This document shows positions 5,070 through 40,631 of a stretch of 64,000 nucleotides of DNA, piece by piece. The first letter of the stretch is position 1. Each line of letters starts with the position of its first letter. A model generated the notes under the pieces. The model was not told where the DNA came from. It did not search any database and worked only from the letters and a program-made list of their open reading frames with translations. The position numbers were made by a program, and so were the translations under genes. The DNA lies in contig CANGVA010000011.1 of the NCBI GenBank assembly GCA_947457395.1, positions 1-64,000 of the forward strand, in the 5' to 3' direction. The DNA comes from Bacteroidota bacterium (GTDB lineage: Bacteria > Bacteroidota > Bacteroidia > UKL13-3).

Positions 5070-5120
5070 AACTGCAAAGTGTTAGGAATGAAGACCTGAA
5101 AGACAGAAATCAATTTTTTT

Positions 5121-5150
5121 TTGCAGAATCGGTGCAGCAACTTACTTTTG
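5121..5150 (+). promoter_or_regulatory. Promoter of tRNA-Ser
   Basis: TTG at 5121-5123, a 19-base spacer and TACTTTTG at 5143-5150 match the Bacteroidota housekeeping consensus TTG-N19-TAnnTTTG exactly. The mature tRNA begins five bases after the -7 box, so the transcript would start at or very near the tRNA 5' end. Confidence 0.8.
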
Positions 5151-5155
5151 CACCC

Positions 5156-5243
<88 letters not shown>

Positions 5244-5245
5244 AC

Positions 5246-5277
5246 TAAAAGTCGCCCCTAATGGGGCGACTTTTTTA
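5246..5277 (+). terminator. Intrinsic terminator of tRNA-Ser
   Basis: AAAGTCGCCCC and GGGGCGACTTT form an 11-bp stem around the loop TAAT, followed by a T-rich run (TTTTTTATTT). It lies three bases after the CCA end. Confidence 0.9.
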
Positions 5278-5301
5278 TTTGCGCAGCAGTGCAAACTTGT
5301 T

Positions 5302-5939
5302 TGCATTCTGCGGAGCAAATAAAAAAGCGCAGAACGCAGTTCAGCGACTTTTGGTTGCAGCCACCCCAAATGGGATAAACGGAGTTAATCCCCAAATGCA
5401 TTCTGCTTCGGAGCAAATAAAAAAGCACAGAACGTAGTTCAGCGACTTTTGGTTGCAGCCACCCCAAATGGGATCAACGGAGTAAATCCCCAAATGCATT
5501 CTGCGGAGCAAATAAAAAAGCGCAGAACGCAGTTCAGCGACTTTTGGTTGCAGCCACCCCAAATGGGATCAACGGAGTTAATCCCCAAATGCATTCTGCT
5601 TCGGAGCAAATAAAAAAGCACAGAACGTAGTTCAGCGACTTTTGGTTGCAGCCACCCCAAATGGGATCAACGGAGTTAATCCCCAAATGCATTCTGCTTC
5701 GGAGCAAATAAAAAAGCGCAGAACGCAGTTCAGCGTCTTTTGGTTGCAGCCACCCCAAATGGGATCAACGGAGTTAATCCCCAAATGCATTCTGCTTCGG
5801 AGCAAATAAAAAGCGCAGAACGCAGTTCAGCGACTTTTGGTTGCAGCCAACCCCAACGGGATCAACGGAGTTAATCCCCAAATGCATTCTGCTTCGGAGC
5901 AAATAAAAAAGCGCAGAACGCAGTTCAGCGACTTTTGGT
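5302..5939 (-). repeat. Tandem array of seven 95-98-bp units, each with a minus-strand terminator-like hairpin
   Basis: The motif AGAACG recurs at 5331, 5429, 5524, 5622, 5720, 5817 and 5915, giving periods of 98, 95, 98, 98, 97 and 98 bases; the 95-base unit lacks TTC in 'GCTTCGG'. Each complete unit contains two small inverted repeats: GGGATcAAC-GGA-GTTaATCCC, and CGC-GAAC...GTTC-GCG. In minus-strand RNA the second is followed by CTTTTTTATTT, like an intrinsic terminator. Units 2 and 4 carry GCACAGAACGTAG instead of GCGCAGAACGCAG; this keeps pairing (G-U) only in minus-strand RNA. There are no variable spacers. The rest of the 5.24-6.10 kb gap (5940-6104) shows nothing more than AT-rich leader of the next gene. 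Confidence 0.9.
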
Positions 5940-6104: not shown

Positions 6105-9100
6105 ATGAAAAATTATCTCTACTTTTTAACTAAACTAGTCTATTACAGAGTTTGGATGTTAAGTTTTATTTTCCTATCAGGCACGACAGCCTACAGTCAA
6201 ACGGCTGTAACAATTCCACCTTTCTATAATACCAATGCCGGTGGTGCTGATAATATTTTTCCGCTTAATAGCACCAATAATACCGTGCAATGGATTTTTC
6301 CACCGGGTACTTTTAATAGTAATGGACCAACAGGAACACCTGCCTCAGCGGGTTTTATTAATAAGATATATTTTTTGTTAGGTGCAACAATAAACAATGC
6401 AAATGTTTATGGGAATTATACATTAAAGATTGGACAAAATGTTGGTACTCAGGTGGCATGGACAGGTGCAACATGGCAAACAGGCCTAACAACTGTTTAC
6501 ACAAATCCAAGTTTTGTTATTACAGGCGCAGCTTCTGGTACGTGGATTATGGTGCCATTACAAACTCCTTTTTATTATAATCCAGCACTATCATTAGTTT
6601 TTGAAATGGGTTCAACTCAAACAGCAGGGGGGAATCAGGTAAGACAAACCGCTCAAGGAAATCAACGCATTTGGGGACCTACAGGGAGCGCAGCACCAAG
6701 TGGAGGCCCTGGAGCAGGTACACTTAACTTTGGAATAGAAGTAGCTCCCGCAGGAAATAATGATGCCGGGGTGGTATCAATAGATTCAATTACTCCATAT
6801 TCTGCAGGTACAAGACCTGTGTATGCCAGAATAAGAAATTGGGGGCTTAATCAAATTAATAATGTTAATGTTAACTGGTCGGTAAACGGTGTTACTCAAA
6901 CCCCTGTGGCATTTACCAGTCTGCTTGATACTGTTGGAGGAGTCGGAAGTGCATTTGCAAACGTTAATTTAGGGAATGTAAATTTTGTTAATAATATAAC
7001 TTACAATATCAGAGCATGGACATCTCAGCCCAATGGGCAAAATGACACGGTTAACGTAAATGATACAGCATCAATTTTCATTCGTTCCCCTTTGAGTGGT
7101 AATTTTACGATTGGAGCAACAGGAGACATTCCAACCATTTCCGCAGCAGCAAATTTATGTTCTTCAGCCGGTGTGAATGGGCCGATAAATTTTACCCTTA
7201 TTGATGATTTATACAACAGAGCAACAGGAGAAAATTTCCCTGCTACTTTCAGTAACATTAATTTCCCGGTTACCATTCGTCCTTCAAGCACTGCAAATCC
7301 TTTAATTATTGATAGTTTAAGCACTGCAATTATTAATATAGATGGTTGCCGTAATTTTAGTATTGATGGCAGAAGAAATGTTAATGATAATGGAAGGAAT
7401 ATAACCATTGAGAACATGAGTATTTCAACCTCGGCAAGTGTGGTACGTTTTTATAATGATGCAATTAGCAGTTTATTAAGGAATGTAGTTGTAAGAGGTG
7501 CTAATAATACTTTAGCCACTACCGCAAACCCTTCGTGGGGTTTGGTGCATATCGGAGGCACCAACAAGGCTGTTCCAATTGGTAATGATAGTATTCTTAT
7601 TTTTAATAACCTCTTTGCTAGATCTCAAGGTCGTCCATATTCACAAGGCTTGGTTTCAGACGGCCAAAGCATCACGGCACAGAATAATAATATAGATATG
7701 GATAGCAATTGGTTTCAGGGTTTTACCATCAATGGTATTCATGTTACCACTACTGCATCAACTTGGGGCAATGGAGGCAATTTCCGAATTAGAGGAAATA
7801 GTTTCTATGATACAATGGTTACCGTTCCGGCTACCACAATGAATTGTATTAATTTTATACCAAACCAATCTTCAGGTTCAAACAATAATTTAATTAGCGG
7901 TAACTATATTGGAGGGCAATCTGCTTTTACAGGAAGCATTGCTGCTACACCTGCGTTGCCACGTTGGGAGTTTGGAGTGGGGGCTACTGCCATATTCAAT
8001 GGTATTGTTGTGAATAGTGGTGCTGGCACAGGAACTACTGTAAGCAATAATGTAATAAGGAATTTTAGGTTTAATAACCCTACCACCACTGCAGGGTTTA
8101 ATATGATTTCACACGGACAGGGTGCTATTCAGGTGTTAAACAATACCATTGGAATGGAAGCTGATACCAATAATATCACCTTTTACGGCAATGCAAATCT
8201 AAACGGTATAACTTGTACATCAACCAACGATCAAACCATAAACGGCAATAGTGTTAGGTCTATAACGGCTAGGATGTCAACCAATGCACCTACTAGTTTA
8301 ATAGTAAGGGGTATACTAACCCAAAGCAGCACAGGCAATGTAAATGTAAACAACAATACTGTTGCAGGCTTTTCTGTTCGTTCAGATGCTACAGGTTCTA
8401 CCACTTCTTGTGCTATTATTGGTATAGCATCTTCCCACACCAGTAGTTCAGTAAATATTAATAACAATACCATTGGCGGTTCAGGGGTAAATGATTCTAT
8501 TGTAAATTATTCTACTATTGCCTCTGCAACAAGGGTAAATGGCATCGTGGTAATTAACTCCGGTATTCATACCATTAATAACAATACCATCAGAAATTTA
8601 TGGAATTTTAATGCAGGCCTGGGAACCTCCATCTCAGCAAATCTGGTGGGTATTAATATGCAAGCAACAGGAAATGGAAATACCCTTTCCGGTAATACCA
8701 TAGATAACTTAAATATGCCAACTAGTGCCACAACTGCTACAATAGGTTTGTTTTCAGGAAGCGGTGCGGCTAGCATTTTAAATAATACCATAAGTAATGT
8801 TTATGTAAACAGTACCAATACAAACACCATTACAAATGCAGCCATTAACGGTATTTGTATAACAGCAAGTTCACTGCACACTATCAATAACAATACCCTT
8901 TTTAATTTTGATAATAGGGCAGTAGCATCTACACAAATCAACGGTATAGTGTTTAGCGGAAATAATTCAACAGTGATTAACAATAATACCATCAGAAACC
9001 TAAGAAACAGAGGCTTTAGTACTTCAACAGGTTTTGCCATAACAGGTATTTTACTTAGTACCTCTTTTGCCAATCAAACTATTAATAACAATACCATACA

Positions 9101-12100
9101 TTCACTTACCTGCTATGATGAGACCAATGCCAACAGTGGCATTATTGGAATTTATTTTTCCGGTTCAAGTTCATTAACTGGTAACGTTAATTCTGTAAGC
9201 AATAATTTCATACATAGTTTTGGTGCCGGTACAATTGGTTTCGCAACGCCAGCAACTAGCTTTAATATGTATGGCATTTCTGTAGTTTCAGGTAATATAA
9301 ACTTGTTTAACAATATGATTAGGCTTGGCAGAGACTCATCCGGTACTCGGTTAACAAGGCCAATAAACTTGCGTGGTATCTTTATTCAAACAGGAGGTAC
9401 GCTGGTCCATAGGATAAGCCATAATACCATTGTTATTGATCAGAATCCAAATACCACAGGATCCCAAACAACTTCAGCATATGAGCATACCAGTAGCTAT
9501 GCTGCTCCCGGATTTTGTGATGTCAGGAACAATATCTTTGTTAACCATACAGTTAGTAATTCGCCTTCAACAGGCACTCATTTTGCTGTTAGATATTCAC
9601 CGTTTACAGCTAATGTCAGGTCAAATCATAATATTTTTAATATTATCCCATCATCATCCTCGTTTATTGGTTTGGCGAATAGTCTAAACAGGTTAACAAT
9701 AGAGAATTTTAAACAGGGTTCATTAACGGATGTAAACTCAACATCCATTAACCCCGGTCTAGTTAATACAACGGGAGACTTTAGTTCAGTAGATTTACAT
9801 CTTTCCGCTGCCAATAATGCCGAGGCTCAAGGCGATAGCACGGTGCTTGCCAATGTTGCAACAGACTTTGATGGCAATAGCAGAACAAGCTGGAATGATG
9901 CTGATATTGGCGCTGATGCATCGGCAGGCACCCTTAGTATTGATAGCATTGCACCGGGTATTAATTTTACCAACCTTATTAATATTGCACCGGTACCAAG
10001 CAGAGTGCTTAATGCTACCATCTATGATCGTTACGGTATGCGAAGTAATATAGACACTCCAAGGGTTTATTACAGGAAAAATGCAGGAGCATGGACATCA
10101 AGTCTTGGCGCGTTAACGAGTGGTGACTTACGAAGTGGTACCTGGCAATTTACCATTGACCATACAGCTTTAGGTGGCGTTGTAGTTAATGATGCTATTC
10201 AATATTTTGTGGTAGCTCAGGACAGTGCTAATAGTAACTTTTCATCAAACCCAATGTATGCGTCAACATCGGTGGCTAATATTGTAACATTTCCCGGTAC
10301 TCCGGCAAGTTATTCAATTACGGATCCAATTCCTACTAATGTAACTGTTGGAACAGGTGGTACCTACACCACCCTTACCGGCACCGGAGGATTGTTTGAT
10401 GCCATTAGTCGCTCAGTCCTACAAGGCAACACCACTGCTGAGATTATTAGTGATATTGCAAATGAGCCGGGCTTGTTTTCTCTTAATGCATGGAATGAAA
10501 TTGGAGCAGGTGGTTACACGCTTACCATTAGGCCGCAAAGCAATACGCAACGCATTATCAGTGGTAATACTTTCAATACTAATGGTTTGATTAGGCTTGA
10601 TAATGGGGTGTCTAGAGTAAGAATATTAGGTTACCCTTCAACCATCATCACACCAATACAGGCTGATACTTTTTTAATTATCCGTTCAAACTCAACGATT
10701 ACTCCGGCATTAGGAATAGCTAATGCCAGTAATACTGATTCCATCATGAATGTGATATTAGAATCACGAACTGCTACTAATGGAATATTATCTATTCTCA
10801 GTTCTTCGGCTATTTATAATACGGGTGTTTATAATATTACCATAGAAAATTGTATTCTGAGGCAAGACTTAACTTCTGTTGCGGCATCTTTACCTGCAAC
10901 AGGTTTTTATGCTATTGGTTCTAGTCCTAGGTTGAACTCCAATATTCGATTTGCAAACAACCAGGTATTGAACTGCACCAATCTAGGCATAAATATCGCA
11001 TCCGGTAACGGTAATTCCTTTAATATTACAGGCAATCAGTTCTATCATAACAACGGAGTCTTAAATATTGGCTTAAGTTACTATATCCTTTTCAATCCGG
11101 GCCAATTCTCAGATAATAACCTTATTTCTGGAAATGTTATGGGAGGAACAACAGCCCAAGCAGGAGGTTTGCCGTTTATAACCACAACCAGTATTCACTA
11201 TGGAATATATGTAAGCAGTGGTTTGGGAAGCGGCACAACTATTCAGAATAATATCCTATCCAACCTAAGGATGACAAGTACTTCTTCTTCATACAATGGT
11301 ATATTCTTAGTTGGTACATCATCTGTTTACAATGTAAATAATAACAGAATCGGAAATATTGATTCTGTTTTCAGCATACATATCGCTTCAACAGGCAGTA
11401 ATCGTTCATATGGTATCTATTCTCAAACAAGCGGAAATATATCTGTTACCAATAATCAGATTTATAATATCAGATACAGTGGTACCGCGGCAACAACCGC
11501 TATGCTTACTGGTATTCAGGTATTTAATGGTTCTTCTAACAATAACATCATAACAGGTAATATTGTGAAGGGGTTGTATATTAATTCTACCAATACAGGA
11601 ACATCTACTGCTGCAGCTATACAAGGTATTTACTGTGGATCGGGTAGTACTGCTATCACAATAGCAAATAATACGGTACAGGAGTTAATTAATATGAATA
11701 ATACTGCCGCACACGCCATGGTAGGTATTTTAAATGCTTCCGGTGTTGCTAGTATTACAGGTAATATCGTTAGAGGTATGGCCTCAAGAAGTACCAACGC
11801 AAGTGCAGCCTCAACTGCAATAGGTATGTGTGGCATTATGAATTCCGCTACTACATCGGGCACTTATAATCTGAATAACAATTTAATTGATAGCATGTGG
11901 TATACAGGTACCTCAGGGTTACAGATGATGGGTATCTATTTTGCCGGTACAACTGCAGCCATTGGTAATATAGTAGGTAATACCGTTAGGAATTTAAATT
12001 CAACATCTACTGCTGTAGGAACGGCCACTGCTGCAAGTATTATTGGTGTTTTTAACAATAGTAGTGCAGTAAATCAGCTAATGAGGTCAAACATAGTGCA

Positions 12101-15100
12101 TACTTTAAAGCATCTTAACACCTCCGGCAGTTCCATTACAGGAATACATTTTACTACAAGTACTTCGCTTACGGGTAATACTTCAATTGTAGACAGAAAC
12201 TTTGTACATAGTATTAGCTCTACTGCAACAAGCGGTTCCCCAATACTTACAGGTATATTACATTCCGGTTTTGCAACCTATACAAATAATATGATAAGAA
12301 TGGGGGTAGACTCTGCCGGTAGCCAATACACTGATTCAAGATTAATCAGAGGAATTCACATTAACTCTACAACACAAGTTTATTTGTATAACAATTCTGT
12401 ATTGGTTGCAGGCTCACCTTCCAGCGGATCGCTTAGCACAGCTGCAATTGAATTCACTTCATCTGTGACTACCGCACAAATATCCGAAATCAGAAACAAT
12501 ATCATTGCAAATATTGCTTCAAACGGAGGAACAGCAACCAGCATACACTATGGCCTGAAGACTATAGATACCGTAAGATTTATTTCTAATTTTAACTTAT
12601 TCTTTACACCGGGAACAGGCGGTATTGTTGTGGGTACCAACATCAGGTCATATCCTTCTTTAAGTGGTGCTGCCGGTTGGAAAGACTGGTCTAGACAAGA
12701 TATGGCCAGTGCATACGGAGATCCTAATTTTAACTCAAATTATTTGGGAACAGCGGATCTAGCGTCTCTTGAATTGAATAGCAGCAATCCTGCTGAGCGC
12801 AGCGGAGATCCTAATTTAACAGCTGTTTTAACTGATTATTTTGGCAACAATCGAAGTGCACTTACGCCTTCTGATATCGGAGCACACGCAGGCAACTTTA
12901 CACAGTCTCCGGATATTTTCCATCCGGTTATATCATTTACACCGCTAACCAATACTGGTACTTTAACAGGCACAAGAACGCTAGCTGATGTAGTAATCAG
13001 AGATAATAATGGCATACCTATGTCTGGTGTCAATAGGCCGGTAATTTGGTACTCAAAAGATGCTAGTAGCTGGTTTAGCGCTTCGGCTATTACGCTGAGT
13101 GGAAGTGCAACCAATGCCACAGCGCAGTTCAGTATAGATTATACACCAATGTTGCCATTATCCAATAGTGATACGATTCGGTATTATGTTTTGGCGCAAG
13201 ACAATGCAGGTAATGTTATTTCATCAGAACCTTATGCTATTGCAACCTCAGTTTCAAACGTTGTTTCTCATCCAGTTAGGCCAAACACCTATAATTTCTT
13301 GCCTGTTATTCCTGCAAACAGTGTATTTCAGGTTGGTGTAGGTCAAACCTATCCTACTCTTACCGGTGTAGGTGGTTTCTTTGAGTTTATTAATTCAAGA
13401 ACATTGGGAGGCAATATAACTGCAGAGATTACTTCAGATATAACTGAGCCGGGAACAATTATTCTTGGTCAGTTTGCAGAAGATGGAGCAGGTGGATATA
13501 ATTTAAACATTAGACCTAGTGCAGGAACGACTTCTCCAAGGATACTTTCAGGGAATACCAACACTGCGCTTATTCGTTTAGATGGTGCCGATAGAGTTAA
13601 AATAAATGGAGTGCCAAGCGGAGGAAATGCAAACGATAGGCTCCTGATGATTCGTAACTCAGGAAATGCAGCCACCATTGAAATGCAGAATGCAACATTA
13701 GGTGTACGTATCAATAATTGTATTATTGAGGGAGCGCCTACATCAACAATCGTTGGAGTAATTAATTTTATTGTTAATGCAGGAACAGTTGGAAATTCTT
13801 TCGATACAATTAATGGCTGTATCATCAGGAATAATACCAGTTTAGCGTCACCATCCGGTGTACCTGCAACCCTAATTTATTCAAATGGCTTACTCAGTCC
13901 TTTGGCACTTAATAATGCGCTGGTTATTACCAATAATGAAATTGCTAACTTTAATAACAATGGTGTTTATTTTAACACATATACTGGAGATAATTGCCAG
14001 ATAACGGGTAATAGCTTTTATAACAATATTATCAATCAGCCACTTGGTAATACCTTCTACCCAATATTTATTAATTCACAGAATTATTGTGGTAACGCCA
14101 ATATAAGCAATAACTTCATAGGTGGCTCTACTACCAATTGCGGAGGTGCAGCTTGGTCCAAATCAAATACTGGTTCTTTTTTTCCGATTTATATAGCATT
14201 AAGGACGGGAGTTGTATCTACAATTACAAATAATACCATCAGAAATATAAACTATAGCAATTCTTCTTCTTTTGCACAGTTTTATGGTGTGTTTCACGTT
14301 AGTGGAGATGCGAATATTAGTAATAACGTAATAGGTAGCAGTACCGGTAACGGAAGTATAATATTTGCAACAAATACAACGCATTACGGTATTTATTCGC
14401 AAACCACCGGAACTATTACCATTAATAATAATCAAATTGGTTCTATAAATATTGGAAACCCCGGTTTAAGTTCAAGTTTCTATGGGATTTTTATAACAGG
14501 AACCAATCCGCTTTCCATAAATAATAATCTCATTGGAAGTAACACAACAGCACAAAGTATTAGATTAAATGGTATTGGCCAGCTCTATGGAATTGCCACC
14601 TCTGTATCGGCCAACCTTGCTCCAATGTATGCCATAACTAATAACACGATTGCCAATATGGATGCTGTTGCAAATTATGCATCCACATTTGTTAGAGGCA
14701 TTCAGATAAATAGTAATACATCAGAGGCTAATGTAACAGGTAATACCGTTCGAGATTTGTACTCAAGTAGTTCCAGTAATAACACAAGCACAAGTGCTTC
14801 AATTATCGGTATTCAGTACAGTAACAGCAGCAATGTTTCAGGAAGTGTTGCTAATAATACGGTGTTTAATATTGCAGCCACAGATGCCGGAAATTCTCCA
14901 ACCTCTGCTTTTGGTATTTTACTCTCTTCAGGTTTTAATATAAGCATGCAATCTAACCGTATTTATAATATCAGTAATTTATCTACTTCAATCAGCACCA
15001 ACCCGGCACCGGTTGCAGCAGGTATCTCTATAGCTGGTGCCAGCACATCTGTTAATTTACTCAATAATCAAATTACACTTGGAAATGCACAAACTACCAA

Positions 15101-18100
15101 TACCCAATTCAATGGAATTTGGCTGCAGTTTAACTCAGGTAATCAGCTTATAGTTAATGCATTTAATAATAGTGTCTTAGTAACTGGTACAGCTACCAGC
15201 GGCAGTCAGCAATCATTCGCATTTGTAAGGGGTAACAACACTGGAACGGAGATGGGTACATTTATGAATTTGCGCAATAATATTTTCGCCAACAACAGAA
15301 GCGGTGGTACAGGAAAACACTATGCTATTGCCAATCAAACCAATGCAGCCACTAATAATACATGGACAGCCAATTCATCAAACCATAATTTATTGGTTGC
15401 TGCAAATTCGTCTTTAATTGGATTGTGGGGCCTTAGTGATCAAACGCTTGCTCAATGGATAATAAATACAGGAGGATCAGATGTGTTTAGTTATGCAGCA
15501 ACATCAACTACCGGAGCAAGCAATGCCTCAAGCATTAATCTTACTAATTTATTTTCCAATATACCTACAGGTAATTTAGGTATCCAGTCATCTAATGTTG
15601 AGGTCTGGTATGTATTTGGGAAGGGGCTAGCAGGTAGTGCTATCAATAACTTAGCAACAGATTTTAACGGCATAGCCAGAAGCACTGCGGCAGGCACCGG
15701 TATTACATTAGGTGCTGTTCAGCTTAACACTGCACCATCAATACTTCCTATTGCAGCATTGGCTTCAGCCAATCCTGCATCCAACACTACTACCACTTAT
15801 ACTTTTGGCGGAAGAAATATTCTTAGTATTAGCTGGGGTGCATCGTCTCCTACAGCCGCAACCGTATTACATTTCACAGGAGTCAATCCTATCGGAACTG
15901 CTCCTGCAGGAAATAATATGAATCAATATACCAGGGTAAATGTTACTGGCGGAACTGCTCCGTATGATTTTGGAGCGACACTTTCATATGACCCTGCTAC
16001 CTTAGGTGTGATTTCTTCAACCAATAACTTAAAGATTTCAACCCAAACTTCAGGAACATTGGTTGCTCCTGTTTGGTCAACATTGCCGATTTCAACTGTT
16101 AATGCTGCTAACAGAACAGTTTCAGCTACGGGAATATCTAGTGGAGGCTTAGGTGCATTGTTCTTTACAGGAACAGAAAATGCAGCCCCGCCTGTTATTT
16201 CTGCTTTCACACCTTCTGCCAGACAAGTTGGTGGTGCGGTTACCATTAGGGGTAGCTTATTTACCGGTGCAAGCGCAATTAATTTCAACGGAGTTAGCCA
16301 GCCAACATTTACTGTGGTAAACGACACAGCCATCAATACTACGGTGCCGGTTGGTGCCACATCCGGTGCGGTTTCAGTTACTAATCCTTATGGCACAGGT
16401 ACAAGTGCTGCATCATTTACGGTAATCCCGGCACCTACTGTAACCTCTATCTCTACCACCTCTGGTACATTTGGTACAGCTGTTACCATTACAGGTACAG
16501 GATTTGTCTGGGCTACTCAGGTTCAGTTTAATATAACCAATGCCGTATTTACCATAGTAAGCAATACATCCATTACCTGCACAGTGCCAAACGGTGCAAC
16601 AACAGGAATAATCACAGTTACTAATCCGGCAGGAAGTGTAGGCAGTGCATCTACATTTACAGTAATTGGTACACCAACCATTTCTTCACTAACACCGGCA
16701 ACCGGAGCTGTAGGAACTAATGTAACCATAGCAGGTACAAATTTTCAGGCTATAACCTCAGTTACTTTCAATAATGTAAGTGCCTCCTATACTGTAAACA
16801 GTTCAACCCAAATTACAGCAACTGTTCCAAATGGAGCGTCAACAGGTTTGGTTCGTGTTACTAATGGTTCAGGTACTGGTGTAAGCACTGGTAATTTTAC
16901 GGTAGTTCAATTGCCAACAATCACTGGGTTTAGTCCATCTTCAGGAAGTTCGGGAACAATCGTTGCTATAAACGGAACCAACTTTTCTTCAGTTGATTCT
17001 GTTGAGTTCTTTGGTGGAGCAAATGCAACTTACACTGTGAATAGCAGCAGCCAAATTACAGTAACTGTGCCTTCTGCTGCATTAACAGGAGCCATCACTG
17101 TTTACACAAGCGTTGGTTCTGCCACAAGTACCGGTTCGTTTACTATTATTCCTGATTTAATCATAAATTCATTGGTTACATCTGTTATTGGTACCTATAA
17201 CAATATTACTGTTACTAGCACTGGTGAGGCAATACTTAGTGGCCCACTTGTTGCTTTAGGTAATGTTGTGGTACAAAGTGGTGGTGCGATTAGATTTGGT
17301 AATAATGTGCTTTCAGGAAATGGAAACTTTACTGCTCAGGTCGGATCAAGGTTATTTATAGGCTCACCTCAAGGTATATCTGCTACAGGTGGTTTAACCG
17401 GGAATGTGCAAGTGGGCGGTGTACGCTCATACAGTAGTGGTGCTATTTATATTTATGATGGCGTTTTTGCGCAAGCAACAGGAACCGGGCTCCCTTCTTC
17501 TGTTGACACATTAGAAATAAATGATACGGCAGGAGTTACACTAACACAACCTTCAAGTGTTAACAGTTTACTTAATTTTATGAATGGCAAGTTAGTTCTA
17601 GGAAACAATAACCTGACTGTTAATGGCAGTATTCAGGGTATTAGCGCCACTTCTTATATTGTCACACCTAATACAATTTCCAGTGGTGGTTCATTAAGAA
17701 GGCCGGTTTCAAATAATAATATTCCTGTTGATTTTCCTATAGGTACCATTTCCACCCAAACGCCTGCACAAATTCAACTATCACTAGGTTCAACGGCAGA
17801 TGTATTCTCTGTGCGTGTTTTCAACGGTGTGTTTCAAAATGCCACATCAGGTCCTGCTTTATCAGCTAATACAGTTAGAAGGACTTGGGTGATTTCTGAG
17901 AATGTTAATGGCGGATCAGTTGCTACTGTTCAGTTAACGTGGGATGATACGCTTGAAAACCCAGGTTTCTTGCGCTCAAGCAGCGGGGTATTCGGTTATT
18001 CAACTGCACAATCAAGTTGGTTATCGCCTTCTACCTTTTCACCTGCAACCGGAGCTGGACCTTTTAGTATTTCAAGGACTAATATCAATTCTTTTGGTGC

Positions 18101-18701
18101 ATTTGCAGTTGGAGACAATACTTCAACTTTACCAGTTGAACTGGTTAGTCTGGTTGCTAATAAATTGGGTAACCATATTGCTGTATCCTGGACCACGGCT
18201 TCAGAGTCTAATAATAGCCATTTTGAGATTGAGCGTTCATATGATGGAGCACGTTTTGAACAAGTAGGAAAAGTTGATGGCATAGGATTTAGCCAATCTG
18301 AGCAACATTATCAGTTTGTTGATACAGAAGCTACACGTAAAGCTAATGTAAACCTTGTGTATTACCGTTTGAAACAGGTTGATTTTGATGGTATGCATAC
18401 GTATTATGGCCCTGCATATGTGCAATTGCAATCTGCTTCTAAACCTGTACTTGCTGTATTCCCTAATCCTTTCAGCCAGGGCTTGCAGGTACAAATGTTT
18501 AATGAGCAAGCGGGTAATGCACACATCATTATTACAGACTTGCAGGGTAGGGTAGTTTATTCCAATACGCTGGACATGGGTTCCGGTTTGCAAACCATTG
18601 CACTACCTAAAATTGATTCATTAAAAGATGGCGTTTACTTTATGCAAACAGAAATAAATGGCCACACAGCCAAAACAAAACTGGTTAAAGCCAGCAATTA
18701 A
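6105..18701 (+). CDS. Giant T9SS-exported protein with three beta-helix modules, four IPT/TIG domains and type A sorting domain
   Basis: This 4198-residue protein has a signal peptide (to about residue 32) and a C-terminal T9SS type A sorting domain (about 4110-4198, 'VFPNPFSQGLQVQ...GVYFMQTEINGHTAKTKLVK'), so it should be exported through the outer membrane and anchored or released. After two N-terminal beta-sandwiches (35-330) come three right-handed beta-helix modules (about 330-1250, 1410-2260 and 2405-3205) built from repeats of the type 'I.NNTI.N'. Each is introduced by 'Y.TLTG.GG.F..I...' plus 'ITSDI.EPG'-like sequence in modules 2 and 3, and they are separated by similar Ig-like linkers (1260-1400, 2265-2400). 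Four IPT/TIG domains follow (about 3364-3685), then a beta-rich segment and an Ig-like domain beginning LPVELVSL. The enzyme-like residues of pectate lyases are not obvious; an adhesive or matrix role is more likely. Its terminator is at 18726. Confidence 0.9.
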   Translation: MKNYLYFLTKLVYYRVWMLSFIFLSGTTAYSQTAVTIPPFYNTNAGGADNIFPLNSTNNTVQWIFPPGTFNSNGPTGTPASAGFINKIYFLLGATINNANVYGNYTLKIGQNVGTQVAWTGATWQTGLTTVYTNPSFVITGAASGTWIMVPLQTPFYYNPALSLVFEMGSTQTAGGNQVRQTAQGNQRIWGPTGSAAPSGGPGAGTLNFGIEVAPAGNNDAGVVSIDSITPYSAGTRPVYARIRNWGLNQINNVNVNWSVNGVTQTPVAFTSLLDTVGGVGSAFANVNLGNVNFVNNITYNIRAWTSQPNGQNDTVNVNDTASIFIRSPLSGNFTIGATGDIPTISAAANLCSSAGVNGPINFTLIDDLYNRATGENFPATFSNINFPVTIRPSSTANPLIIDSLSTAIINIDGCRNFSIDGRRNVNDNGRNITIENMSISTSASVVRFYNDAISSLLRNVVVRGANNTLATTANPSWGLVHIGGTNKAVPIGNDSILIFNNLFARSQGRPYSQGLVSDGQSITAQNNNIDMDSNWFQGFTINGIHVTTTASTWGNGGNFRIRGNSFYDTMVTVPATTMNCINFIPNQSSGSNNNLISGNYIGGQSAFTGSIAATPALPRWEFGVGATAIFNGIVVNSGAGTGTTVSNNVIRNFRFNNPTTTAGFNMISHGQGAIQVLNNTIGMEADTNNITFYGNANLNGITCTSTNDQTINGNSVRSITARMSTNAPTSLIVRGILTQSSTGNVNVNNNTVAGFSVRSDATGSTTSCAIIGIASSHTSSSVNINNNTIGGSGVNDSIVNYSTIASATRVNGIVVINSGIHTINNNTIRNLWNFNAGLGTSISANLVGINMQATGNGNTLSGNTIDNLNMPTSATTATIGLFSGSGAASILNNTISNVYVNSTNTNTITNAAINGICITASSLHTINNNTLFNFDNRAVASTQINGIVFSGNNSTVINNNTIRNLRNRGFSTSTGFAITGILLSTSFANQTINNNTIHSLTCYDETNANSGIIGIYFSGSSSLTGNVNSVSNNFIHSFGAGTIGFATPATSFNMYGISVVSGNINLFNNMIRLGRDSSGTRLTRPINLRGIFIQTGGTLVHRISHNTIVIDQNPNTTGSQTTSAYEHTSSYAAPGFCDVRNNIFVNHTVSNSPSTGTHFAVRYSPFTANVRSNHNIFNIIPSSSSFIGLANSLNRLTIENFKQGSLTDVNSTSINPGLVNTTGDFSSVDLHLSAANNAEAQGDSTVLANVATDFDGNSRTSWNDADIGADASAGTLSIDSIAPGINFTNLINIAPVPSRVLNATIYDRYGMRSNIDTPRVYYRKNAGAWTSSLGALTSGDLRSGTWQFTIDHTALGGVVVNDAIQYFVVAQDSANSNFSSNPMYASTSVANIVTFPGTPASYSITDPIPTNVTVGTGGTYTTLTGTGGLFDAISRSVLQGNTTAEIISDIANEPGLFSLNAWNEIGAGGYTLTIRPQSNTQRIISGNTFNTNGLIRLDNGVSRVRILGYPSTIITPIQADTFLIIRSNSTITPALGIANASNTDSIMNVILESRTATNGILSILSSSAIYNTGVYNITIENCILRQDLTSVAASLPATGFYAIGSSPRLNSNIRFANNQVLNCTNLGINIASGNGNSFNITGNQFYHNNGVLNIGLSYYILFNPGQFSDNNLISGNVMGGTTAQAGGLPFITTTSIHYGIYVSSGLGSGTTIQNNILSNLRMTSTSSSYNGIFLVGTSSVYNVNNNRIGNIDSVFSIHIASTGSNRSYGIYSQTSGNISVTNNQIYNIRYSGTAATTAMLTGIQVFNGSSNNNIITGNIVKGLYINSTNTGTSTAAAIQGIYCGSGSTAITIANNTVQELINMNNTAAHAMVGILNASGVASITGNIVRGMASRSTNASAASTAIGMCGIMNSATTSGTYNLNNNLIDSMWYTGTSGLQMMGIYFAGTTAAIGNIVGNTVRNLNSTSTAVGTATAASIIGVFNNSSAVNQLMRSNIVHTLKHLNTSGSSITGIHFTTSTSLTGNTSIVDRNFVHSISSTATSGSPILTGILHSGFATYTNNMIRMGVDSAGSQYTDSRLIRGIHINSTTQVYLYNNSVLVAGSPSSGSLSTAAIEFTSSVTTAQISEIRNNIIANIASNGGTATSIHYGLKTIDTVRFISNFNLFFTPGTGGIVVGTNIRSYPSLSGAAGWKDWSRQDMASAYGDPNFNSNYLGTADLASLELNSSNPAERSGDPNLTAVLTDYFGNNRSALTPSDIGAHAGNFTQSPDIFHPVISFTPLTNTGTLTGTRTLADVVIRDNNGIPMSGVNRPVIWYSKDASSWFSASAITLSGSATNATAQFSIDYTPMLPLSNSDTIRYYVLAQDNAGNVISSEPYAIATSVSNVVSHPVRPNTYNFLPVIPANSVFQVGVGQTYPTLTGVGGFFEFINSRTLGGNITAEITSDITEPGTIILGQFAEDGAGGYNLNIRPSAGTTSPRILSGNTNTALIRLDGADRVKINGVPSGGNANDRLLMIRNSGNAATIEMQNATLGVRINNCIIEGAPTSTIVGVINFIVNAGTVGNSFDTINGCIIRNNTSLASPSGVPATLIYSNGLLSPLALNNALVITNNEIANFNNNGVYFNTYTGDNCQITGNSFYNNIINQPLGNTFYPIFINSQNYCGNANISNNFIGGSTTNCGGAAWSKSNTGSFFPIYIALRTGVVSTITNNTIRNINYSNSSSFAQFYGVFHVSGDANISNNVIGSSTGNGSIIFATNTTHYGIYSQTTGTITINNNQIGSINIGNPGLSSSFYGIFITGTNPLSINNNLIGSNTTAQSIRLNGIGQLYGIATSVSANLAPMYAITNNTIANMDAVANYASTFVRGIQINSNTSEANVTGNTVRDLYSSSSSNNTSTSASIIGIQYSNSSNVSGSVANNTVFNIAATDAGNSPTSAFGILLSSGFNISMQSNRIYNISNLSTSISTNPAPVAAGISIAGASTSVNLLNNQITLGNAQTTNTQFNGIWLQFNSGNQLIVNAFNNSVLVTGTATSGSQQSFAFVRGNNTGTEMGTFMNLRNNIFANNRSGGTGKHYAIANQTNAATNNTWTANSSNHNLLVAANSSLIGLWGLSDQTLAQWIINTGGSDVFSYAATSTTGASNASSINLTNLFSNIPTGNLGIQSSNVEVWYVFGKGLAGSAINNLATDFNGIARSTAAGTGITLGAVQLNTAPSILPIAALASANPASNTTTTYTFGGRNILSISWGASSPTAATVLHFTGVNPIGTAPAGNNMNQYTRVNVTGGTAPYDFGATLSYDPATLGVISSTNNLKISTQTSGTLVAPVWSTLPISTVNAANRTVSATGISSGGLGALFFTGTENAAPPVISAFTPSARQVGGAVTIRGSLFTGASAINFNGVSQPTFTVVNDTAINTTVPVGATSGAVSVTNPYGTGTSAASFTVIPAPTVTSISTTSGTFGTAVTITGTGFVWATQVQFNITNAVFTIVSNTSITCTVPNGATTGIITVTNPAGSVGSASTFTVIGTPTISSLTPATGAVGTNVTIAGTNFQAITSVTFNNVSASYTVNSSTQITATVPNGASTGLVRVTNGSGTGVSTGNFTVVQLPTITGFSPSSGSSGTIVAINGTNFSSVDSVEFFGGANATYTVNSSSQITVTVPSAALTGAITVYTSVGSATSTGSFTIIPDLIINSLVTSVIGTYNNITVTSTGEAILSGPLVALGNVVVQSGGAIRFGNNVLSGNGNFTAQVGSRLFIGSPQGISATGGLTGNVQVGGVRSYSSGAIYIYDGVFAQATGTGLPSSVDTLEINDTAGVTLTQPSSVNSLLNFMNGKLVLGNNNLTVNGSIQGISATSYIVTPNTISSGGSLRRPVSNNNIPVDFPIGTISTQTPAQIQLSLGSTADVFSVRVFNGVFQNATSGPALSANTVRRTWVISENVNGGSVATVQLTWDDTLENPGFLRSSSGVFGYSTAQSSWLSPSTFSPATGAGPFSISRTNINSFGAFAVGDNTSTLPVELVSLVANKLGNHIAVSWTTASESNNSHFEIERSYDGARFEQVGKVDGIGFSQSEQHYQFVDTEATRKANVNLVYYRLKQVDFDGMHTYYGPAYVQLQSASKPVLAVFPNPFSQGLQVQMFNEQAGNAHIIITDLQGRVVYSNTLDMGSGLQTIALPKIDSLKDGVYFMQTEINGHTAKTKLVKASN

Positions 18702-40193: not shown

Positions 40194-40631
40194 TTAATTA
40201 GTGTTATCTAAGCCAGATACTTTAATAAACTCATCATATTCCTGCTGAAATGTTTTATTAGCATGATGTTGTTTTTGGTTATGGATGTAGTGATATACTT
40301 TTTCAACTATCGATTCAGAAACAGAATAAGCTGCATAGCCGGTTTGCCAGGCAAATTTGACAGAAAGTTCCTCTTTTTGATTTATATAATGTGAACTGGT
40401 GCCTTTTATTTGCTTAATGACTTCAGCAATTGATTTTTGAGGATTTAATAAAAATAAGCAATGAATGTGATCCGGCATACCATTTATGATTCTTACCGGG
40501 CATCCTAGTTCTCGTAATTCTTCAGCAATGTATGCATATACATTTCTTTCAATAGTTTGGTCAATTAATGGAACTCTTTCTTTTGTTGCCCAAATAGCGT
40601 GTATCCAAATTTTGTTAAATGAATGTGGCAT
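40194..40631 (-). CDS. Y1 (HUH) transposase, IS200/RAYT-like
   Basis: The 145-residue protein has the HUH motif H55-I-H57 in 'GMPDHIHCLFLL' and a single catalytic tyrosine, probably Y115, in 'YHYIHNQKQHH'. These are the features of IS200/IS605 TnpA and of REP-associated tyrosine transposases (RAYTs), single-strand DNA endonucleases. There is no TnpB and no second subterminal palindrome typical of IS200; instead a perfect palindrome lies 52 bp upstream of the start (40684-40719), which fits the RAYT-REP arrangement. All catalytic residues are present, so the gene looks intact. Confidence 0.92.
   Translation of the reverse strand: MPHSFNKIWIHAIWATKERVPLIDQTIERNVYAYIAEELRELGCPVRIINGMPDHIHCLFLLNPQKSIAEVIKQIKGTSSHYINQKEELSVKFAWQTGYAAYSVSESIVEKVYHYIHNQKQHHANKTFQQEYDEFIKVSGLDNTN

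Follow-up and report, generated by a model that had tools for sequence, protein, structure and literature searches.

What is a seven-fold tandem array of hairpins doing directly behind a tRNA gene, and is it complete in itself? The question is raised by positions 5302-5939 of the window, by which we mean the whole stretch of 64,000 nucleotides analysed here from one contig of a Bacteroidota genome (G000). An earlier note on this DNA had described seven repeated hairpins next to tRNA-Ser, and this description was borne out. The array contains seven copies of a unit of 95-98 bp, starts 58 nt past tRNA-Ser(TGA), and was reported by Tandem Repeats Finder with a period of 98 at 5311-5939 and as a 193-bp double unit at 5302-5939. 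The A-tract stretch which precedes each hairpin (b′ below) starts at 5313, 5411, 5506, 5604, 5702, 5800 and 5897, with spacings of 98, 95, 98, 98, 98 and 97. At the corresponding syntenic position three units are present in the sister species (G001), and the array is therefore not an assembly artefact. A search of the genome for other unit sites, a check proposed in the earlier note, found the array confined to one place, by which a dispersed repeat within the genome was ruled out; a coding repeat was rejected as well, the stop-to-stop frames across the array being at most about 76 aa and running with the repeat. The unit is, however, half of a larger element, which was missed in the earlier note.

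The anatomy of this element was read from the tRNA gene onwards. The tRNA-Ser gene (anticodon TGA, CCA encoded) lies at 5156-5243 on the plus strand and is preceded by a promoter-like site, TTTG-N19-TACTTTTG (5120-5150, plus strand), an exact match to the Bacteroidota-type promoter pattern; the exact matches in the window, which are not above chance frequency, are this one, another ahead of tRNA-Lys and a third at 58.1 kb. On the plus strand the parts follow in the order tRNA, a, P2, T-tract b, inner arms, b′, P4, a′, a linker AAGCCYCCCC and P5. Arm a (CAACTAAAAGTCGC, 5242-5255, plus strand), the 5′ arm of P1, comprises 14 nt from C75 of the tRNA-Ser CCA end, and it is complementary to a′ (GCGACTTTTGGTTG) in every unit. 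The first a′ lies at 5344-5357 on the plus strand and pairs with one G-U; the others begin at 5442, 5537, 5635, 5733 (with one mismatch), 5830 and 5928 (cut short). P2 (5247-5274, plus strand) is the predicted intrinsic terminator of the tRNA, a 12-bp stem followed by a T-tract, and this T-tract is also b (CTTTTTTATTTGC, 5270-5282, plus strand), the 5′ arm of P3. Arm b is complementary to the A-tract b′ before each hairpin, exactly so for the first copy (GCAAATAAAAAAG, 5315-5327, plus strand), while the six later starts given above carry GAGCAAATAAAA. P4 is the hairpin called terminator-like in the earlier note, and occurs at 5328-5346, 5426-5444, 5521-5539, 5619-5637, 5717-5735, 5814-5832 and 5912-5930. 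A hairpin with a T-tract was recognised on the minus strand by the terminator scan exactly seven times, once per unit, at the first position of each of these, as had been claimed; a GC-rich hairpin followed by a T-tract was found on the plus strand at 5247-5274. P5, a hairpin of the form GGGAT(C/A)AACGGAGT(T/A)AATCCC, has its first copy at 5372-5392 (plus strand) and others from 5470, 5565, 5663, 5761 and 5858, and is conserved at other loci. The array is thus made of seven b′-P4-a′ copies, six of which also have the linker and P5.

The minimum-free-energy fold of 5241-5400 on the plus strand is a four-way junction of P1 (a with a′), P2 (the tRNA terminator), P3 (b with b′ plus the inner arms) and P4, followed by P5 GGGATCAACGGAGTTAATCCC (GGGATCA..TAATCCC). 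For the longer stretch 5241-5500 the fold switches to local hairpins. Since the junction predicted from this single sequence is not unique, the weight is carried by the comparison of loci, most of which have the same junction as their minimum-free-energy fold. The element is a quasi-palindromic four-way junction attached to the 3′ end of tRNA-Ser, and the array is an amplification of its 3′ half, the stretch between the P3 apex and P5 being repeated seven-fold in the window. The arms are complementary to the trailer of the tRNA they follow, with which they are predicted to pair, and the two change together between loci.

The loci compared were the tRNA-Ser loci of the same family and those from a pattern search of GTDB genomes. 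In the window genome and its sister species the same layout was found with different sequences, a′ in every case being the complement of the trailer at that locus, at tRNA-Ser(GGA) (a/a′ CAACCCAATCCCG/CGGGATTGGGTTG), tRNA-Pro(TGG) (CAAGCAAAGCCTG/CAGGCTTTGCTTG), tRNA-Pro(GGG) (CAATCAAAGCCTG/CAGGCTTTGATTG) and tRNA-Arg(TCT) (GATCAAAACAA/TTGTTTTGATC); the a arms of the two proline loci are one base apart and the change is compensated in a′. The same anatomy stands after tRNA-Ser, and sometimes after tRNA-Pro or tRNA-Arg, in many Bacteroidota with unrelated sequences, and the same order recurs in many further loci, including those of Pedobacter antarcticus (L175), Sphingobacterium alkalisoli (L179) and several Bacteroidota metagenome genomes. 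Across 20 non-redundant loci, some of them selected on P1 score and the pattern-selected ones not, Watson-Crick pairs make up 209 of the 220 in P1, where 2000 shuffles of the partners gave 108 on average and never more than 138; all four pair types occur at most of the 11 positions. P1 is clear in most of the pattern-chosen loci; L225 and L234 were poorly parsed by the script, yet L234 has a strong P1 in a separate scoring.

The distribution of the element follows the tRNA genes. When only helices starting at the tRNA end were counted, 18 of 79 tRNA-Ser, 5 of 13 tRNA-Pro and 1 of 10 tRNA-Arg loci passed, against 2 in the reversed control, and the only other tRNAs passing were two tRNA-His loci, where the copies further downstream repeat the terminator in direct orientation. 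The linker/P5 pattern had 17 matches in 58 family genomes (about 175 Mb), where its reversed control had zero; 16 of the 17 come after a tRNA-Ser 3′ end, among them a tRNA-Ser 3′ fragment (L392) and a tRNA cut by a contig end (L391), and the remaining one (L401) lies inside protein-coding sequence. Every GTDB pattern match less than 400 nt past a tRNA stands behind tRNA-Ser and has the common layout; across all genomes the first exact pattern was not selective enough, most of its 120 stretches being chance. When 210 kb of the window and related loci was scanned for the four-way junction, under criteria strict enough to miss the window's own copy, five cases emerged, all beside tRNA-Ser, on which ground a generic terminator design was rejected. 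The element has a scattered distribution: within the family, and even within one genus, many tRNA-Ser genes are without it, and it is therefore dispensable. No other convincing case came from 392 sampled Bacteroidota genomes, searched with an exact pattern which will miss variants; the three further matches obtained there belong to one family and resemble the coding match L401 in sequence. This phylum sample shows the element to be rare outside some groups. A phage-borne element was also rejected, as only one of 100 pattern-matching stretches of IMG/VR has an upstream tRNA within 1.5 kb (1244 nt away, tRNA-Met). A different type of tRNA-Ser trailer, in which the complement reaches into the tRNA itself (CGCCGTCGCTCACCGAA / TTCGGTGAGCTATGGCG), was seen at L353, L365 and L366.

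Which strand folds was judged from the pairs and the loops. The earlier note had argued for selection on minus-strand RNA from the GCACAGAACGTAG variant, which is present in two units (5420 and 5613). This variant does keep the stem better in minus RNA (-8.1 kcal/mol) than in plus RNA (-4.6 kcal/mol), the consensus having -10.0 on both strands, but the argument rests on two units and the stem changes in the sister species are neutral or plus-favouring (plus/minus -8.5/-8.5 and -8.1/-6.3). Over 33 loci the plus-strand counts of G-U to A-C are 9:8 in P1, 17:3 in P2, 34:18 in P3 and 6:3 in P4, to be taken as indications and not as probabilities because related loci are not independent; the test scored G-U and A-C alike, and P5 is dominated by a conserved C-A mismatch. 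By these indications P2 would behave like a plus-strand RNA stem and P3 would lean to the plus strand, whereas the Watson-Crick arms of P1 are unbiased and show no strand, so that P1 gives no support for RNA-level selection on either strand. The loop motifs GNA, GNRA and CTTG were read 44 times on the plus strand and 6 times on the minus strand, again among loci which are partly related, and this polarity indicates the plus strand as the putative folded molecule, either as RNA or as single-stranded DNA. A minus-strand terminator was recognised at 19 of 33 element loci and at 34 of 122 other tRNA loci; such predicted terminators are commoner at element loci without defining them, whereas nearly every element locus has the predicted pairing with the trailer of its tRNA.

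The repeats themselves hold traces of how they may have arisen. In the window and in L198, L109, L224, L082 and L403 the repeated unit, as read by eye, begins at or next to the P3 apex and extends over P4, a′, the linker and P5. A direct second copy of the tRNA-Ser 3′ end (CTCTCTCCGCCA) is absent from the window units and present past P5 in several other loci (L102, L179 and L195), and three loci of one genome (L392, L402 and L406) share arms in mosaic form, one of them on a tRNA fragment. The unit starts, the tRNA 3′-end copies and the mosaics fit replication slippage and template switching at the hairpin, together with recombination among tRNA-Ser loci. Perfect stems are known to be created and maintained by template switching, and the rare, strand-unbiased G-U pairs of P1 are as it predicts (PMC8794818); the 34:18 lean of P3 to the plus strand is less in keeping with it. 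Contigs C1, C8, C14 and C28 of the window genome break 130-261 nt past a tRNA, as is expected if longer tRNA-linked repeats cannot be assembled.

We favour, without quite calling it probable, the reading that the element is a module of the tRNA 3′ end. Its anatomy and covariation are observed as given above, and its functional steps, we infer, would be as follows. P2 would end the tRNA transcript, and on polymerase read-through P1, P3 and P4 would fold the trailer into a clamp beside the CCA end, which may bar exonucleases or present a long duplex to RNase III. The mirror half could also terminate antisense transcription in many loci, this array included. Template switching at the palindrome, as the DNA is replicated, would renew the near-perfect Watson-Crick arms and would also produce the tandem copies, whose start at the P3 apex fits this; selection would keep the plus-strand fold. 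Because P2 is a strong terminator by sequence, a′ may be rarely transcribed, and P1 and P3 perhaps never form in RNA. Against the module also speak the unbiased pairs of P1, the tRNA-Ser genes without the element, its rarity in the phylum sample and the selection of some loci on P1 score.

Four other explanations were weighed against this module. An unlikely one is a DNA-level element, that is, a small non-autonomous insertion or an attachment-site-like repeat in the T-loop or 3′ end of tRNA genes, with P5 being half element and half tRNA T-arm, spread between tRNA-Ser loci by recombination or by a transposase acting on hairpin DNA. It would account for the tRNA-Ser 3′ ends repeated past P5 at L102, L179 and L195, and for L392, L402 and L406, which share a in one genome, with mosaics and one on a tRNA fragment; the predominance of GNA triloops also speaks for it, such loops being very stable in DNA. 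A Y1 (REP-type) transposase gene is present in the window (40275-40616, minus strand), with no match in the sister species. As G001 and G017 both carry the element and have no Y1 match, this transposase was excluded as maintaining factor; the differing a/a′ arms within one genome argue against any single recognising transposase, and no copy was found off tRNA-Ser 3′ ends with the linker/P5 pattern in the 58 genomes, apart from the one coding match.

It is quite unlikely that the palindromes by the tRNA genes are purely mutational, being made and renewed by template switching and having no function. The constant start at C75, the conserved linker and P5, the occurrence at tRNA-Ser and only a small number of other tRNAs, and the bias of the P2 terminator are unexpected from mutation alone, even though the Watson-Crick pairs, the near equality of G-U and A-C in P1, the presence or absence of the element within a genus and the tandem units beginning by eye at the P3 apex all agree with such an origin. 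We consider improbable a regulated structured RNA, in which read-through of the tRNA is controlled and the folded trailer, together with its conserved linker and P5, works as an RNA in its own right: the plus-strand loop polarity, CTTG and GNRA loops included, and the sequence conservation of P5 and the linker would suit it, but a strong terminator stands upstream of most of the element, P1 has few G-U pairs and there is no Rfam match. Very improbable is the model of the earlier note, a minus-strand terminator array blocking antisense transcription into tRNA-Ser and mnmD or serving as template of a small repeated RNA, for although the seven units are good minus-strand terminators by sequence, such terminators are commoner at element loci (19/33 vs 34/122) and a block here is possible, they are not general among element loci, the strand argument is reversed in the sister species, and the repeated RNA is unsupported, the window scan for the Bacteroidota-type promoter having no minus-strand match near the array.

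The closest known case to the tRNA 3′-end module is that of the tyrT repeats and rtT RNA of E. coli, which are reportedly tandem repeats right after a tRNA gene, tied to its 3′ end and terminator, and are said to be direct copies of the tRNA 3′ sequence. The place is the same, but the units described here are complementary to the tRNA trailer and build the predicted four-way junction. An Rfam scan of the window at a lax threshold gave no match to the rtT family model, and in 14 related loci only the tRNA was matched, the element reaching no family gathering score; a known RNA family was rejected on these scans. The element resembles intrinsic (bidirectional) terminators in P2 on the plus strand and, in many loci, in P4 with its T-tract on the minus strand, but ordinary terminators are without an outer P1 helix from the tRNA CCA end, a long P3 between and a conserved P5. 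REP elements, as portrayed with their Y1 transposases in PMC3733652 and PMC6006769, are likewise short intergenic palindromes, sometimes clustered; the present element differs from that portrayal in having no conserved tag-plus-hairpin sequence, in its locus-specific arms and in being bound to tRNA-Ser. Template-switched quasi-palindromes (PMC8794818) are alike in arms kept perfectly complementary and in multi-base compensatory change, but concern stems of RNA genes, whereas here an intergenic element is fixed to tRNA genes.

No published description was located in the open-access literature, where absence is weak evidence. It is possible, though doubtful, that the element represents an undescribed class, a tRNA-anchored four-way junction with arms rewritten per locus to match their own tRNA-Ser trailer, which would act on tRNA 3′-end formation or as a single-stranded DNA structure. 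It offers a natural case in which arm sequence is free and complementarity to the tRNA trailer is kept across genera, and with it one can test whether long perfect stems persist through RNA selection or through template switching in replication. It also points to an unstudied layer around Bacteroidota tRNA-Ser genes and implies that a tRNA 3′ flank can belong to a larger fold which is left unannotated by gene finders and Rfam.

Other repeats and genes were observed beside tRNA genes. In the window genome (L050, L060, L063, L065 and L071) and in the sister species (L075, L088 and L090), the genes of tRNAs Phe, Met, His, Glu and Leu-GAG have behind them direct tandem repeats of either their 3′ end or the entire gene, with the terminator included; in several of these copies a palindrome, for example CCCGAGCACTCGGG or TCCCGAT..ATCGGGA, occupies the T-loop or D-loop. 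Upstream of tRNA-Gly (L048 and L074) and tRNA-Pro (L057), the 5′ half of the tRNA recurs in copies carrying a D-loop palindrome. Small GIY-YIG nuclease genes are present in the window genome at C13:33896-34108, C13:35500-35718, C8:9-218, C28:3-89 and C5:37-195, and all of them directly follow tRNA-Asp, tRNA-Ala, tRNA-Leu(CAA) or tRNA-Val or sit at a contig end (C5); a GIY-YIG protein of 609 aa in the same genome, outside this small set, is probably UvrC. Beyond the array, positions 6105-18701 of the window form a single open reading frame of 4198 aa, the C-terminal residues of which resemble a type IX secretion sorting domain.
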